From: Rikenellaceae bacterium
GTDB taxonomy: Bacteria > Bacteroidota > Bacteroidia > Bacteroidales > Rikenellaceae
Length of the DNA: 64,000 nt
Assembly: GCA_017442365.1 (NCBI GenBank)
Contig: JAFRZW010000016.1
Span: 62,001-126,000 of the forward strand
Reading direction: 5' to 3'
Shown here: positions 16,900-54,170 of the stretch, piece after piece
How positions within the stretch are numbered: position 1 is the first letter of the stretch
Layout: every line of letters begins with the position of its first letter
The notes under the pieces: generated by a model
The model's input: only the letters and a program-made list of their open reading frames with translations
The model's database searches: none
What the model was told of the DNA's origin: nothing
Translations under genes and position numbers: made by a program

Positions 16900-19269
16900 A
16901 TGAAATTTTGGAGTAGGGCGATATTGATATTCATTGTAGCCGCTTTGGCAGTGGGGTGTGGTGTTACGCGCCGTATCCCGCAGGGCAAATATTTGCTCCA
17001 AAAGAACGAGATCGAAACTGACGAGAGCGTGCCGCGCGAGGAGCGTATCACCGCAGCTGAGATCGACCGCTACGTGCGCCAACAACCCAACAAACGATTC
17101 TTGGGTACGAATTTTTATCTCTGGACCTACCTCTCGGCCAACCCCGACAAGCAGAATTGGTGGAACAACCTGAAACGTCGTATTGGCGAGGCTCCGGTCT
17201 ATCTCGACACGTTGCAGACCGAGCGCTCGGCATCGAATATCAAGATCTATATGGACTCGCGCGGATACTTCAACTCCGAGGCGTCGTATGAGATCGATAC
17301 CACGTCGCGTCGTCGTGCCGTCGTAACCTATCGCACAAAGCAGGGGCGTCCCTATCGAATCGGGCAGATCAAGTATCGTTTCCGCGATCGATCTCTCGCT
17401 CCGATCATTTTGGAGGATACAGCCGCGTCGTTGCTGCACGAGGGCAATGTGCTGGACTTCACGGTGTTGGACAAGGAGCGATCGCGTATAAGCAACGCCC
17501 TGCGCGATAACGGATACTTCAATTTTACGATCAACAACATTCTCTACGAGGTCGATACTACGGTGGGTGGCTATCGTGCCGATGTTACGGTTGAGGTGCG
17601 CCAGAATCTGATGGGGTATAACGATCGTGGTCTGCCGATTATGGGCAACAATACGGTCTATCGACTGCGTAACGTCAATCTCTTTCCGGACTATGACCCG
17701 ACCGTCGCACGTAGCGATAGTAGCTACATTGATCGCCTCGATACGGTTGATTATCGTGGTCTGAACATTATCTATGACGAGAAATTGAAGGTGCGCCCGA
17801 AGGTGCTGCGACAGACGATCGACCTCTTCCCCAACCACCTGTTCAGTGCGAAGGGTGTTCAGGATACCTACGATCAGGTTATGCGTGTGGGCTACTTCCG
17901 CAGTGCCAACATACAGTTCGAGGAGGACACAACCTCGACCGAGGTGTCGTTTATCGGTGCGAGGACCAAGGGTGGCAACCACTCGCTTTCGACCAAGGAG
18001 GGCTACCTGAATTGCAATATCTTCTGCACGCCCGCTCTGCCACAGAGTTACAAGGTCGAGTTGGAGGGCTCGACTACGTCGAGTTTCTATGGTCTGCGCG
18101 GTACGGTCGGTTACCAGAACCACAATATTTTCCGCGGTATGGAGCTGCTCGATGTGTCGTTCTCGCTCGGTTATGAGTTTATGAAGGGTGCCGAGGCCAA
18201 ACGCAAACGTGCCTTCGAGATTGGTGGATCGGCATCGTTGTCGTTCCCGCGATTCATTGTGCCGTTCAATATCCGTCGCTCGGCGTCGATATCGAATCCG
18301 CGCACAAAGGTCGAACTGTCGATCAATTCGCAGGATCGCCCCTACTATCAGCGAGTGTTGTCGAGTGCCTCGTGGAGCTACACGTGGGGCAATGGTCGCT
18401 ACTCGAACTATGCTCTGCGACCGATCGATCTGACGCTGATCAAGGTGGGATATATCGATCCCGAATTTCTCGACCGCCTGCAAAATCCCTACCTGCGCAA
18501 TAGTTATTCGCAGCAGTTGATTGCTGGTATCTCGGGATCGTACGTGTTTAATAATCAGATACGTAACATCAACGGCAATGCCACCAACCTGCGTTTTAAT
18601 TGGGAGACGGCGGGTAATCTGGTGGGCGCGCTGTCGCACCTGTTGTCGAAACCTGCGGCTGACCGCGACCACTATAACGTCTTTGGCATTCGCTATTCGC
18701 AATATTTCCGTACTGACCTCTCGTTCAGTCGTAAGGAGGTGCTTGGTGCCAAGACCGCTTTGGCCTATCGACTCTATGCGGGTGCGGGCTTGGCATACGG
18801 CAACTCGACCGAAATCCCGATCGACCGTCTGTTCTATGCCGGTGGTAGCAACTCGATGCGCGGTTGGGCGGCACGTACGCTCGGACCGGGTGGGGTGGCG
18901 ATCAGCGACGACCAGCGCATCTATCCGAGTCAGGTGGGTAATATGAAGATCGAGGCCAATCTCGAATTTCGCTTCCCGATTTGGAGTATGTTCAATGGTG
19001 CGGTCTTCTTCGATGCGGGCAACGTCTATATGATCGGACAGAAGGGGCGCGAGTACCCCGAAGGATCGGTCTTCCGTTTCAACGATTTCTATAAGAATAT
19101 AGGTTTCAATACGGGTCTTGGTATCCGCTTGGATATCTCGTTTGCGGTGCTGCGTTTCGACTGGGGTATCCGCCTCTACGACCCCAACCAACCTATGGGC
19201 GAGCGCTGGATCCACAACTTCCGCTGGAAGAATACGGCGCTGAACTTCGGTGTCGGCTACCCATTTTAA
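16900..19269 (+). CDS. tamL: BamA/TamA-family outer-membrane lipoprotein (TamL)
   Basis: Seen: 789 residues. The N-terminus has a lipobox (LAVGCGVTRRIPQGKYLL), unlike proteobacterial TamA. POTRA-like domains occupy about residues 25-360, and a C-terminal 16-strand Omp85 barrel contains the signature FYAGGSNSMRGWAARTLGPGG and closing strands ending FGVGYPF. Known: in Bacteroidota the TamA partner of TamB is a lipoprotein called TamL, involved in outer-membrane homeostasis. tamB is not visible in the flanking genes, so the pair is split or lies elsewhere. It ends exactly at heptad repeats and a terminator. Confidence 0.92.
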   Translation: MKFWSRAILIFIVAALAVGCGVTRRIPQGKYLLQKNEIETDESVPREERITAAEIDRYVRQQPNKRFLGTNFYLWTYLSANPDKQNWWNNLKRRIGEAPVYLDTLQTERSASNIKIYMDSRGYFNSEASYEIDTTSRRRAVVTYRTKQGRPYRIGQIKYRFRDRSLAPIILEDTAASLLHEGNVLDFTVLDKERSRISNALRDNGYFNFTINNILYEVDTTVGGYRADVTVEVRQNLMGYNDRGLPIMGNNTVYRLRNVNLFPDYDPTVARSDSSYIDRLDTVDYRGLNIIYDEKLKVRPKVLRQTIDLFPNHLFSAKGVQDTYDQVMRVGYFRSANIQFEEDTTSTEVSFIGARTKGGNHSLSTKEGYLNCNIFCTPALPQSYKVELEGSTTSSFYGLRGTVGYQNHNIFRGMELLDVSFSLGYEFMKGAEAKRKRAFEIGGSASLSFPRFIVPFNIRRSASISNPRTKVELSINSQDRPYYQRVLSSASWSYTWGNGRYSNYALRPIDLTLIKVGYIDPEFLDRLQNPYLRNSYSQQLIAGISGSYVFNNQIRNINGNATNLRFNWETAGNLVGALSHLLSKPAADRDHYNVFGIRYSQYFRTDLSFSRKEVLGAKTALAYRLYAGAGLAYGNSTEIPIDRLFYAGGSNSMRGWAARTLGPGGVAISDDQRIYPSQVGNMKIEANLEFRFPIWSMFNGAVFFDAGNVYMIGQKGREYPEGSVFRFNDFYKNIGFNTGLGIRLDISFAVLRFDWGIRLYDPNQPMGERWIHNFRWKNTALNFGVGYPF

Positions 19270-21469: not shown

Positions 21470-22180
21470 TTATCGAGCGTTGAGCGAGCCTGTGCGCTCT
21501 TTATCCGCACCTTCCAAGCCGACCCAATGCAACGTGAAGGGACGCGGTTCGTCGCTACGCAGAGCCTCGATGTCGAACGAGATGCGGTGCGAAGTGATCA
21601 TCTGTCCGTCGTTGTTTTTGTCGTCGTCGCCGTAATGGATCAGATAGAGATCGAGAATCGGATCGTCGGGCGCAGGACAATAGAGTTCGAACTTATGCTT
21701 TTTGTTGTCGAGCGACTTGTAGTCGAAACAGAGGTCGAGGTATGAGCTGCCGACGTGTGCCGAGCTGACATAAACGGGCGAGCACGTTGCAGTCGGCTCG
21801 CTACCGATGATGGTCTGCTGGCAGGGCAACGAACGCAGGGCGTTGAGCTGAATGGCGTAACCTGCCTTGCACGATTCGGGTAGCTGAAATGGCGACAGGT
21901 CGCTCATCACGTTGTAGTTGATCATCACGCGGCTGCCATTGACGATGGGCGAGGAACTGCCATACAGATAGCCTTGATCGCGGATAACGAGCAGCGCGAT
22001 GCCGTCGTCGCGGATGATGTAGTGGTTGTTCGACGAGCCGTAACCATCGGTAATAAGCATCGTTCCGTAGTCGATCATAAATTCATCTTCTTTATGATCG
22101 AAATCAGCCAGATCGGCCTCGCACGCACCGAGCGAAACAGCCACCACGAGCAACAGCAATATGTTCAAAAAACGTTTCAT
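21470..22180 (-). CDS. NigD-like lipoprotein
   Basis: Seen: 236 residues from ATG 22180, chosen because MKRFLNILLLLVVAVSLGACEAD forms a textbook lipoprotein signal; an upstream in-frame ATG at 22219 adds a non-signal-like stretch. The layout is a small N-terminal beta/OB-like domain (about 30-95, with GSRVMINYNVMSD) and a C-terminal beta sandwich with HKFELYCP and ISFDIEAL. Known: NigD-like proteins are Bacteroidota envelope lipoproteins, first noted beside bacteriocin genes, without a defined biochemical role. It lies 78 bp downstream of the sigma/anti-sigma operon and has a promoter motif shared with the sigma gene. Confidence 0.78.
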   Translation of the reverse strand: MKRFLNILLLLVVAVSLGACEADLADFDHKEDEFMIDYGTMLITDGYGSSNNHYIIRDDGIALLVIRDQGYLYGSSSPIVNGSRVMINYNVMSDLSPFQLPESCKAGYAIQLNALRSLPCQQTIIGSEPTATCSPVYVSSAHVGSSYLDLCFDYKSLDNKKHKFELYCPAPDDPILDLYLIHYGDDDKNNDGQMITSHRISFDIEALRSDEPRPFTLHWVGLEGADKERTGSLNAR

Positions 22181-22194
22181 ACCTTGTCTTCTAT

Positions 22195-22228
22195 TTATAT
22201 AGACGCACGAACACCCCAAAATGTGCCA
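22195..22228 (-). promoter_or_regulatory. ECF-type promoter candidate of the NigD-like gene
   Basis: On the minus strand TGGCAC is followed, after exactly 15 nt, by TGCGTCTATATAA. The 13-bp block is identical to the one before the ECF sigma gene at 24204, at the same spacing from a TGnnAC box. CGTC is a common -10 core of ECF promoters. Confidence 0.5.
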
Positions 22229-22257: not shown

Positions 22258-23595
22258 CTACTTCGTCCCAAAATGCAATCTCGCACCGGCTTGCAAGGTC
22301 AGCGAAAGGGGGTGCTCGGTGCGGTAGCTGAGCGGTTGGTTGTTGTCGAAGAAGTAACCTGCGCCCGCCTCGGCATAGATACCCACGCGCTGAGAGAGTT
22401 TCAATTCGGCACCTACGGCTACCGTTGCCGAGAGTTGTACTCCCTTGCAATCGATCTTTTGCGAAGTGCTGTTGCTGAGGTTTTCGTCGGTCGTACCCAC
22501 CGTCTGTACGCGCTTGGCGGCAACAGCCCGCTCGATAGCACCGCCTGCGCGAGCATAGAGTTCGAAACGGTTACCGTCGATAAATTTGTAGCTTGCAGTC
22601 AAGGGGACGCCCACGTAGTGCAGCTCCTGCGAAGTCTGGTAGGAGAATACGCCCTCCGATCGTCCTGTCGAGTGCAGATAGGTGTAGGTTGCGCCTGTTT
22701 CGAGAGCCCAGCGGTCGGTCAGCTCGTACTGCACCCCCACACCGACCGTAAAGGGAACGCGATGGTTGAGTTTTGTTTCGGTCTGCTTGCGCACCGAGAG
22801 CGGCGATGACGACGAGAGCTTGTCAATCACCTCGCCGTGCGACGAGTTGAGCACCTCGGTCTTGACCATACCGGCCTCGGCCAGACGTGCCGTCGAGGGT
22901 GTCTGGTTGCTCATTCGGTTGGCATTCGAGGCGTAGAGTGAGGCTGTTATGCGTCCTCCGCGACGGTTGTTTTGCTCGGACAGAACCTCTTGCAGACGCT
23001 TCTCATATTGCTCACGTGGAGTCGGAGTGCCGTTGTCGCTTTTGGGCGACTGCTTATGATTATCGTTGCTCGCAGCACTCTCGACCGGCACGTGATTATT
23101 GGTACTTTCGACCGTGTCGAGGAGCGTCTCCTGCTCGGTCGAAGGCTCAGTTGCGCTGTGTTCGGAGATCAAACTCGACTCGCTCTTTCGTGCGTTTGTC
23201 GTTTGCACACGTGCGAACTTATTTGTCGGCTCTGCGTTGATCGGCTCCTCCGCAGGTTCCTCGTTGGCGATGCTCGCAGGGTCGTAAAGAACCGTCGCGT
23301 CAGCCAGCAACTCTGACTGGTCGGGCTGAGGTGTAAGGCGTACTAAACGATTGGCTAACAATCCAATACCCAACAGCAGCATTGCAGCAATGCCATACTG
23401 CCAAGCGCGTCGCACGCCGAGTCGCTGACGGCGGTGCGGAGCGATCGTGATGGGCGGCGTGGCGGGCTTTGCGGCGGCGTCAATCTCGGCCATCGAGGCG
23501 GCAATGCGATCCCACATATCGGCTGGGGCATCGACGCTGTGATTGGCGAGCTGATCGGCGAGTCGCTTCTCGAATTTATCGTATTGTTCGTTCAT
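22258..23595 (-). CDS. Anti-sigma-like membrane protein with a C-terminal beta-barrel domain
   Basis: Seen: 445 residues. A cytoplasmic-type N-terminus (about 1-70, with DAPADMWDRIAASM and KFEKRLADQL) is followed by one TM helix (about 65-82, YGIAAMLLLGIGLLANRL), a long Ser/Thr/Glu-rich linker (about 90-250) and a C-terminal 8-strand OmpA/PorT-like barrel (about 260-445). There is no signal peptide. Known: Bacteroidota often encode this fusion next to ECF sigma factors, and the N-terminal part is treated as an anti-sigma. It starts 17 bp after the sigma gene. How one chain could span the inner membrane and also form a barrel is unclear. Confidence 0.8.
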   Translation of the reverse strand: MNEQYDKFEKRLADQLANHSVDAPADMWDRIAASMAEIDAAAKPATPPITIAPHRRQRLGVRRAWQYGIAAMLLLGIGLLANRLVRLTPQPDQSELLADATVLYDPASIANEEPAEEPINAEPTNKFARVQTTNARKSESSLISEHSATEPSTEQETLLDTVESTNNHVPVESAASNDNHKQSPKSDNGTPTPREQYEKRLQEVLSEQNNRRGGRITASLYASNANRMSNQTPSTARLAEAGMVKTEVLNSSHGEVIDKLSSSSPLSVRKQTETKLNHRVPFTVGVGVQYELTDRWALETGATYTYLHSTGRSEGVFSYQTSQELHYVGVPLTASYKFIDGNRFELYARAGGAIERAVAAKRVQTVGTTDENLSNSTSQKIDCKGVQLSATVAVGAELKLSQRVGIYAEAGAGYFFDNNQPLSYRTEHPLSLTLQAGARLHFGTK

Positions 23596-23612: not shown

Positions 23613-24140
23613 TTATTTTCTCAAAAGTTCCAATAGCGTTTCGCGGGCACGTCGGAATTGTGATCGGGCGGTGCTCTCCTTCACTCCTAATATCTCGGCA
23701 ATATGGTGATAATCAAGCTCCTCGACCACCCTCAGATTGACCACTGCACGAGCCACGGGCGAAAGTTTTTCCATCAGTGCCACCACCTCTTCCGACGTAT
23801 AGCGGTCGAGAATTTCGGGGCTGACGGCCGAACGGCTGACCGTTTCGAGATTGCTCTCGATCTCGGTTATCTCCAAGCGATTGTTATGTCGCAGGTGGTC
23901 GATAGCGGTATTGGCGGCAATGCGACGACACCAACCCTCAAACGACCCTTCGCCACGATACTCGCCAATGCGCGTGAAGATTGTGATAAACGCATCGTGC
24001 AACAGATCTTCGGCCTCTGTACGATTGGGAACATAACGGCACAGCACACCGAATATGAGGCGTGAGTAACGCTCATAGAGTTCGCGTCGGGCGTGGTTAT
24101 CGGCCTTGCGGCAGCCGTCGATAATCTGTTCGAGTTCCAC
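23613..24140 (-). CDS. ECF-type RNA polymerase sigma factor
   Basis: Seen: 175 residues with region 2 (RRELYERYSRLIFGVLCRY, EAEDLLHDAFITIF, RRIAANTAIDHLRH) and region 4 (LSPVARAVVNLRVVEELDYHHIAEIL, ESTARSQFRRARETLLELL). No region 3 or 1.1, as expected for ECF factors. Known: such factors direct RNA polymerase to special promoters until bound by an anti-sigma. The next gene encodes its likely anti-sigma. Its own upstream region carries a motif shared with the NigD-like gene, suggesting autoregulation (inference). Confidence 0.93.
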   Translation of the reverse strand: MELEQIIDGCRKADNHARRELYERYSRLIFGVLCRYVPNRTEAEDLLHDAFITIFTRIGEYRGEGSFEGWCRRIAANTAIDHLRHNNRLEITEIESNLETVSRSAVSPEILDRYTSEEVVALMEKLSPVARAVVNLRVVEELDYHHIAEILGVKESTARSQFRRARETLLELLRK

Positions 24141-24203: not shown

Positions 24204-24237
24204 TTATATAGACGCAAAAATAGGTAATTTCGTTGCA
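24204..24237 (-). promoter_or_regulatory. ECF-type autoregulatory promoter candidate
   Basis: On the minus strand TGCAAC, 15 nt, then TGCGTCTATATAA, about 64 nt before the sigma ATG. A housekeeping-like -7 box (TATTTTTG, 24215-24222) overlaps it, so dual control is possible. Confidence 0.5.
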
Positions 24238-53170: not shown

Positions 53171-54170
53171 CCAAATTTTGTCAGCCGATCACGTGCCGTG
53201 CCACGTTTCGGTGGTTGTGCCCGTCTATAACGAGTACGAGTCGCTGCCCGAATTGGAGCAGTGGGTCGATCGAGTGATGCGCGAGAACAACTTTTCGTAC
53301 CAGCTCATACTGATCGACGACGGCAGTAACGACACGTCGTGGGAGGTGATCGAGCAGCTGTCGGCCAAGAATGAGTCGGTGTGTGGTCTGCGTTTCCGTC
53401 GCAACTATGGTAAGTCGGCGGCACTGTATTGTGGTTTCGAAGTGGCTGAGGGTGATGTCGTTATCACGATGGACGCCGACCTGCAAGATTCGCCTGACGA
53501 GATTCCCGCTCTGTATAAGATGATTGTTGAGGAGGGCTACGATCTGGTTTCGGGCTGGAAGAAGGAGCGCCACGATCCGGTTGGCAAACGTTGGCCGAGC
53601 AAGTTCTTCAACGCAACGGCACGTGTGGTGTCGGGTATCAAACTCCACGATTTCAACTGCGGATTGAAGGCCTACCGTCGTAAGGTTGTGAAGAGCATCG
53701 AGGTCTATGGCGAGATGCACCGCTATATTCCGATTTTGGCGAAACAAGCTGGTTTTAAGCGCATTGGCGAGAAGGTGGTGGTCCATCGGGCTCGCAAATA
53801 TGGCGTTTCGAAGTTCGGGTGGGAGCGAATGATCAAGGGTTACTTGGATCTTCTCTCGGTGATGTTTATGTCGAAATTCGGTCGCAGTCCGATGTATTTC
53901 TTTGGTTCGTTGGGTACGCTGATGTTCCTGTTTGGTGGTGGTGCAGCGGTGTGGATCGTGCTGCAAAAGGTTATCCGCCAAGCTAATGGATTGGTGTGGC
54001 GCAGTGCTACGGATCAGCCGCTGTTCTATCTGTCGTTGGTGGCTGTGGTGTTAGGCGTTGTGCTCTTTTTGGCGGGATTTTTGGGCGAGCTCATCAACCG
54101 CAACTCGTCGGATCGCAATCGCTATCTGATCGATGAGGTCGTGGGTGCTGACGATGTATATTTTGATTAA
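53163..54170 (+). CDS. Polyprenyl-phosphate glycosyltransferase (DPM1-like family 2)
   Basis: Seen: 335 residues from ATG 53163 (MSNQILSADHVP). Cytoplasmic GT-A domain with VSVVVPVYNEYESL, LILIDDGSNDTS, the DxD motif TMDADLQDSPDEI and DFNCGLKAYRR, then two C-terminal TM helices (about 250-272 and 290-314). Known: this ArnC/GtrB/DPM1 group moves a sugar from a nucleotide donor to undecaprenyl phosphate. Acceptor sugar unknown. Translationally coupled to DUF4199. Confidence 0.92.
   Translation: MSNQILSADHVPCHVSVVVPVYNEYESLPELEQWVDRVMRENNFSYQLILIDDGSNDTSWEVIEQLSAKNESVCGLRFRRNYGKSAALYCGFEVAEGDVVITMDADLQDSPDEIPALYKMIVEEGYDLVSGWKKERHDPVGKRWPSKFFNATARVVSGIKLHDFNCGLKAYRRKVVKSIEVYGEMHRYIPILAKQAGFKRIGEKVVVHRARKYGVSKFGWERMIKGYLDLLSVMFMSKFGRSPMYFFGSLGTLMFLFGGGAAVWIVLQKVIRQANGLVWRSATDQPLFYLSLVAVVLGVVLFLAGFLGELINRNSSDRNRYLIDEVVGADDVYFD

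Follow-up and report, generated by a model that had tools for sequence, protein, structure and literature searches.

A probable Dma/Reo-type dual membrane-spanning anti-sigma factor from a Rikenellaceae bacterium and the predicted promoter motif of its sigma factor

The window, the whole stretch of 64,000 nucleotides analysed here from a Rikenellaceae bacterium, encodes a predicted Dma/Reo-type dual membrane-spanning anti-sigma factor of 445 residues (22258..23595, minus strand), as assigned from the open reading frame, Pfam, AlphaFold2 and VIA-align. The protein is a diverged Rikenellaceae member of the Dma and EcfO-Reo anti-sigma factors, and not a new kind. A head, a membrane helix, a tether and a barrel are joined in one chain, and this design, proposed in a preliminary description of the DNA, is confirmed. 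The best explanation, which we consider very probable, is a Dma/Reo-type anti-sigma factor with a head-bound ECF sigma factor, a chain between two membranes and an envelope regulon.

Gene, operon and protein architecture

The open-reading-frame check gave a frame of 445 residues at exactly the coordinates given in the preliminary description. The nearest named relatives are metagenome-assembled Rikenellaceae genomes obtained from cattle and roe deer (L053–L055). In the comparison with L053 over 444 codons, 89, 56 and 160 differences were counted at codon positions 1, 2 and 3, respectively. This excess at the third position is typical of a protein-coding gene. According to the protein search, the window copy is the only one in its own genome (1.9 Mb, 21 contigs). 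The genome's three remaining barrel-family matches (L001, L003 and L004) were rejected as further copies; they are short, have a hydrophobic segment near the N-terminus, and lack the head and tether.

The gene for an ECF sigma factor (175 residues, GTG start; 23613..24140, minus strand) precedes the anti-sigma gene with a spacing of 17 nt. Both Sigma70_r2 and r4_2 are above the Pfam cut-off, and the NCBIfam superfamily model TIGR02937 scores 106 bits against a cut-off of 42.9. On the other side, 77 nt from the end of the anti-sigma gene, starts the ATG of a NigD-family lipoprotein (236 residues from this ATG; 21470..22180, minus strand). It matches PF17415 with 23.7 bits (cut-off 22.6) and NF051862 with 55.4 bits, which is under the cut-off of 60; the genome has one NigD1/NigD2-family match. 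An Omp85/POTRA protein with a lipobox-like start (16900-19269, plus strand; PF01103 with 86 bits, and PF07244) is encoded a few kb away from the anti-sigma gene, and presumably resembles the TamL lipoproteins of Bacteroidota.

The AlphaFold2 model was built on an alignment of 80 sequences, and has a mean pLDDT of 73.9 and a pTM of 0.56 for the whole chain. Helices are predicted at residues 3–17, 27–41, 54–87 and 193–210, and eight main strands lie within residues 216–442. The cytoplasmic head (residues 1–46; 23458..23595, minus strand) contains the first two helices and the conserved Pro24 and Trp28. This two-helix head is conserved among the relatives, and its binding of the sigma factor is a prediction. 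The weak point of the assignment is the match of the head to the NCBIfam anti-sigma model, whose 20.8 bits are far under the cut-off of 100. The preliminary description placed a cytoplasmic head before a single transmembrane helix, with no signal peptide. This is borne out here: no signal peptide is apparent at the N-terminus, and the hydrophobic core of the membrane helix begins only at residue 69 (residues 69–87; 23335..23391, minus strand). Its hydrophobicity of 1.78 is somewhat below the family median of 2.09. Among 80 family members, the best 80 of 193 loci, Lys and Arg residues average 4.6 before the helix and 1.2 after it. This bias fits an N-in orientation, with the head inside and the tether outside. 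The tether (residues 88–192; 23020..23334, minus strand) is predicted to be periplasmic and mostly disordered, with pLDDT below 50 over nearly all of residues 99–184, in agreement with the long disordered linker described before. The predicted helix 193–210 (22966..23019, minus strand) directly precedes the barrel and might cap or plug it.

According to the model, the C-terminal domain (residues 213–445; 22261..22959, minus strand) is an eight-stranded barrel of the OmpA/OprF type. The barrel blocks from residue 280 onward mostly have pLDDT of at least 90, and the first strand about 75–81. The Pfam families OMP_b-brl_2 (42.8 bits, cut-off 27) and OMP_b-brl (41.3 bits, cut-off 28.7) match at the C-terminus, and the barrel families above cut-off span residues 269–419. 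The top Foldseek matches are OmpA chains with E about 1e-7. In VIA-align, OprF (4rlc) gives Z 17.8 with 2.1 Å over 131 residues, tied with the designed barrel 6x9z, and NspA and OmpA (1qjp) give Z 15.7 and 15.6, respectively. The likeness to solved barrels came through structure comparison only; the sequence search gave six PDB profile matches, with E 0.069 or worse and no barrel protein among them. Thus the barrel-type C-terminus of the preliminary description stands on Pfam, AlphaFold2 and VIA-align, but its extent of 190 residues does not, as the barrel starts near residue 213, about 40 residues earlier. A loop of about 50 residues follows the first strand, and therefore the sequence families place the start of the barrel late.

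Tether length and alternative readings

The tether was measured from the helix end to strand 1 in 80 proteins, from the best 80 of the 193 loci. An earlier value of about 190 residues reached the second barrel strand, and was replaced by this measure. The length is 132 ± 11 residues (range 110–161; 128 in the window protein). In the same proteins, the relative spread is 9% for the tether, and 17% for both the first outer loop and the head. The mean difference in tether length is 7–10 residues in pairs closer than 70% barrel identity, 12–14.5 residues in pairs with 25–70% identity, and 3.8 residues in pairs below 25%, the last from four pairs only. With growing divergence the tether length at first changes and then no longer does, a course that suggests selection on it. 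A plateau alone is not specific to the tether, since the loop and the head region level off as well; the small relative spread is. The sequence of the tether is unalignable, with identity of about 10% and about 50 gapped columns in most pairs compared. A tether that keeps its length and not its sequence limits the models of sensing.

One such model treats the tether as a length-tuned spring, by which the protein would gauge the gap or the attachment between the membranes. With the gap width (21 nm) and the persistence length assumed, the worm-like-chain estimate gives about half extension and 11–12 pN. With the membranes about 20 nm apart, the chain would be stretched to near half of its full length by a force of about 10 pN, and blebbing of the outer membrane or extraction of the barrel would alter the pull and free the sigma factor. 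We regard this reading as doubtful.

The constant length also bears on a different possibility, that one chain is made and then, as a rule, cleaved within the tether into two separate proteins, an inner-membrane anti-sigma factor and an outer-membrane barrel, so that the cut is maturation and not signalling. A long, exposed and disordered tether would be easily cleaved, and its sequence is free to drift. If the halves acted apart, the length should be free as well, yet 80 proteins keep to 132 ± 11 residues. The preliminary description suggested a search for a protease site in the linker, and by column conservation alone no conserved cut site stands out there. This possibility is judged unlikely. 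If instead the hydrophobic segment were a cleaved signal, the mature protein would be an outer-membrane barrel of the usual kind, preceded by a long N-terminal extension. An AxA-like tripeptide is present near the helix end in 20 of 80 members (best 80 of 193 loci), as this would predict, but it is missing in the other 60. The segment comes after a conserved head of 40–90 residues and has no conserved signal-peptidase site, and the gene stands behind a sigma gene in 79 of 80 loci. The segment is very unlikely to be removed as a signal, which agrees with its description as a membrane helix.

It is also scarcely credible that the C-terminus forms a soluble β domain in the periplasm, as part of an ordinary one-membrane anti-sigma factor. 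Most anti-sigma factors are of the one-membrane design, and nothing else was found in favour of this reading; against it, the Pfam outer-membrane families are above cut-off, and the model is a closed eight-strand barrel that matches OprF and OmpA at Z 15–18. The structure prediction of the C-terminus, a check proposed in the preliminary description, gave a barrel of membrane type and not a soluble β domain.

In the preferred reading, that of a Dma/Reo-type anti-sigma factor spanning both membranes, the head would keep the adjoining ECF sigma factor at the inner membrane, where the uncleaved helix would be the anchor of the chain. The tether would cross the periplasm, and the barrel would be assembled into the outer membrane. 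Damage to the outer membrane, failed insertion of the barrel, or a barrel pulled out may be the trigger. The head would then release the sigma factor through a change of shape or through stepwise proteolysis, possibly by an M50/RseP-like protease; the genome encodes an M50 protease. Once free, the sigma factor would act at GSMAC-N17-CGTCTATA promoters of its own operon, of nigD and of about six other transcription units, and the regulon products, mostly lipoproteins and exported proteins, would remodel the envelope.

Promoter motif and predicted regulon

The sequence TGCAAC or TGGCAC, followed by 17 nt and CGTCTATA, is present upstream of both the sigma gene and nigD in the window and three relatives. 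In the window, the predicted ECF promoter of the sigma-dma operon, GCAAC-N17-CGTCTATA (24207..24236, minus strand), starts 96 nt upstream of the GTG of the sigma gene, and that of nigD, GGCAC-N17-CGTCTATA (22198..22227, minus strand), starts 47 nt before the ATG. The pattern GSMAC-N17-CGTCTATA was defined on the sigma and nigD sites. Nine exact matches were found in the genome, and none with the reversed pattern as the control. With one mismatch allowed, 20 matches were found against 18 in the control; only the exact matches are therefore informative.

Eight of the nine exact matches stand before genes, most of which encode lipoproteins or exported proteins. Besides the sigma-dma operon and nigD, the predicted targets are a 220-aa exported protein followed by a lipoprotein-like gene, a 372-aa lipoprotein (L156:2284-3399, minus strand) with an OMPP1/FadL-type protein (PF03349) encoded behind it, a lipoprotein of 331 aa, a radical-SAM-associated lipoprotein (TIGR04134) whose radical SAM gene (TIGR04133) lies farther along, and another two lipoproteins, one of which is encoded directly behind an M50/RseP-like protease gene (L161, C15:231000-237000 of the same genome). 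The 372-aa lipoprotein is rich in Tyr and Trp in its middle and in Ser and Gly in its tail, and gave no Pfam or NCBIfam match. In genome G457, two lipoprotein genes are related to the one at L161, and the motif is located before each. The ninth exact match (53200-53229, plus strand) lies within a glycosyltransferase frame and is probably due to chance.

The three genomes with a sigma factor 98, 78 and 78% identical to that of the window contain 8, 7 and 6 exact matches, respectively. Five target families are common to all four genomes, and the site of nigD is exact in three of the four and has one mismatch in the fourth. The other 59 genomes of the genus have 0–2 exact matches each (nine sites in eight genomes), and 0–5 each with the reversed control; a sigma search in 20 of these 59 gave matches of at most 43% identity. 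Among 25 other genomes with diverged pairs, a set without the L084 genome, the exact matches are again 0–2, with any in eight. These counts across genomes tie the motif to the sigma factor of the window. Eight further sigma-70-type matches are present in the genome, and any of them might share the motif. No published promoter motif was found in a literature search that stopped short of the PNAS 2024 and EcfO 2013 papers and the supplements, and the motif is not claimed as unpublished; the words motif, consensus and TGCAAC are absent from the main text of PMC13114119.

Family spread and known systems

Matches to P0001 were found in 16 of the 61 relatives' genomes, and two of them (in G002 and G012) are short ordinary barrels. 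With a 14-sequence profile, 323 of 392 Bacteroidales genomes gave matches at E 0.001 or better; many of the listed matches cover the head alone or the barrel alone. The family sample used here, the best 80 of 193 confirmed loci, includes Myroides, Chryseobacterium and Capnocytophaga. A sigma frame lies directly upstream in 79 of these 80 loci, at distances from about 30 nt of overlap to a gap of 71 nt. In the one exception, L086, no sigma gene was detected, and a 213-aa frame is found instead. The architecture is repeated in 79 other loci with an adjoining sigma gene, and is therefore not a product of chance.

In the sigma tree of 80 rows, 18 are split from 62 with support 100/100. The clade of 18 consists of the window, 13 loci with nigD downstream and four without it. 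TGCARC-N17-[CTG][AG]TC is present upstream of the sigma gene in 17 of these 18, L058 being the one without it, and in none of the 62; shuffles gave 0.2 in all 80, and 60 of 6564 stretches elsewhere in the loci matched. A profile search of all open reading frames detected a NigD-like frame in the flanks of 54 of the 80 loci (best 80 of 193), 13 of which had contributed to building the profile. Of the 17 loci in the window clade, 13 have it downstream of the anti-sigma gene. No NigD-like frame was detected in the flanks covered for L100, L109, L113 and L125, where the sigma promoter motif is present; these four are outside the set used to define the pattern. In the other 63 loci, the NigD-like frame is upstream of the sigma gene on the same strand in 32 and divergent in five, and 25 were unplaced by the position rule, including L075, L090 and L105 with a NigD-like match elsewhere; the remaining one is L086, where no sigma gene was detected. 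TGCAR-N18/19-TTTA precedes nigD in 20 of the 32 nigD-first loci, where shuffles expect 0.27, and is present in four of the five divergent loci and three of the 25 remaining. The clade patterns were drawn up by eye from some of the loci in which they were then counted, so that these counts are partly circular. Both lineages keep the sigma factor, the barrel anti-sigma factor and often nigD together, and differ in the gene order and the -10 element. At first, only the downstream side was inspected: 18 of the downstream proteins of 53 were chosen by eye, and together with that of the window 14 of 19 matched the NigD1/NigD2 model. The restriction of NigD to the window's clade was rejected when the profile search found it in both.

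In FecR-type surface signalling and in RseA, an inner-membrane anti-sigma factor frees an ECF sigma factor in response to the outer membrane, as proposed here. The outer-membrane sensor of those systems is a separate protein, whereas the sensor barrel and the head are one chain in the window protein. Reportedly, a 2024 PNAS paper is the founding paper of the Dma family.

The 2024 founding paper is cited in the accessible part of PMC12045153, and that of PMC12596196 mentions Das1/Dma1. According to the part of PMC13088901 that was available, Dma1/Das1 and Dma2/Das2 of Bacteroides thetaiotaomicron have the four-part layout and an ECF sigma partner, and Dma1 is linked to NigD lipoproteins. As far as that text goes, the window protein shares the head, the membrane helix, the long disordered tether, the C-terminal barrel and the adjoining ECF sigma gene with Dma1 and Dma2, and the NigD link with Dma1. 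It differs in coming from another Bacteroidales family and in a regulon predicted from promoters; the comparison is by description and not by sequence. EcfO-Reo is known from Phocaeicola vulgatus and Bacteroides fragilis (PMC9308784, PMC13114119, in the portions available). In P. vulgatus, the regulon is switched on in anti-sigma mutants and in cells treated with the BcpT toxin; ecfO-reo is responsive to Bd-A as well, and the signal proposed by the authors is outer-membrane stress. From these portions, Reo is said to reach from the cytoplasm to the surface, with the sigma gene directly upstream as in the window, and the system has NigD genes in its regulon and induction by outer-membrane stress. 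By locus numbers nigD is beside the sigma gene in EcfO-Reo, whereas it is behind the anti-sigma gene in the window. The Bacteroides and Phocaeicola loci compared here, which do not include the published Dma/Reo sequences, belong to the other sigma clade. The NigD linkage of EcfO-Reo and Das1-Dma1 recurs in the window, where nigD is the next gene and is predicted to have a promoter motif in common with the sigma gene. The suggestion of the preliminary description that such a design could report outer-membrane assembly to a sigma factor is supported; as reporting of the outer-membrane state is already published for the Dma and Reo proteins in the text available (PMC13088901; PMC9308784, PMC13114119), the idea is correct but not new.

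New here are the promoter pattern with a short, testable list of likely targets, the sigma linkage in 79 of 80 loci (best 80 of 193), the conserved tether length, and the difference between the two clades in nigD position and promoter. The window protein extends the Dma/Reo system to Rikenellaceae, and the Dma/Reo proteins seem to be single chains that connect the cell surface with transcription.
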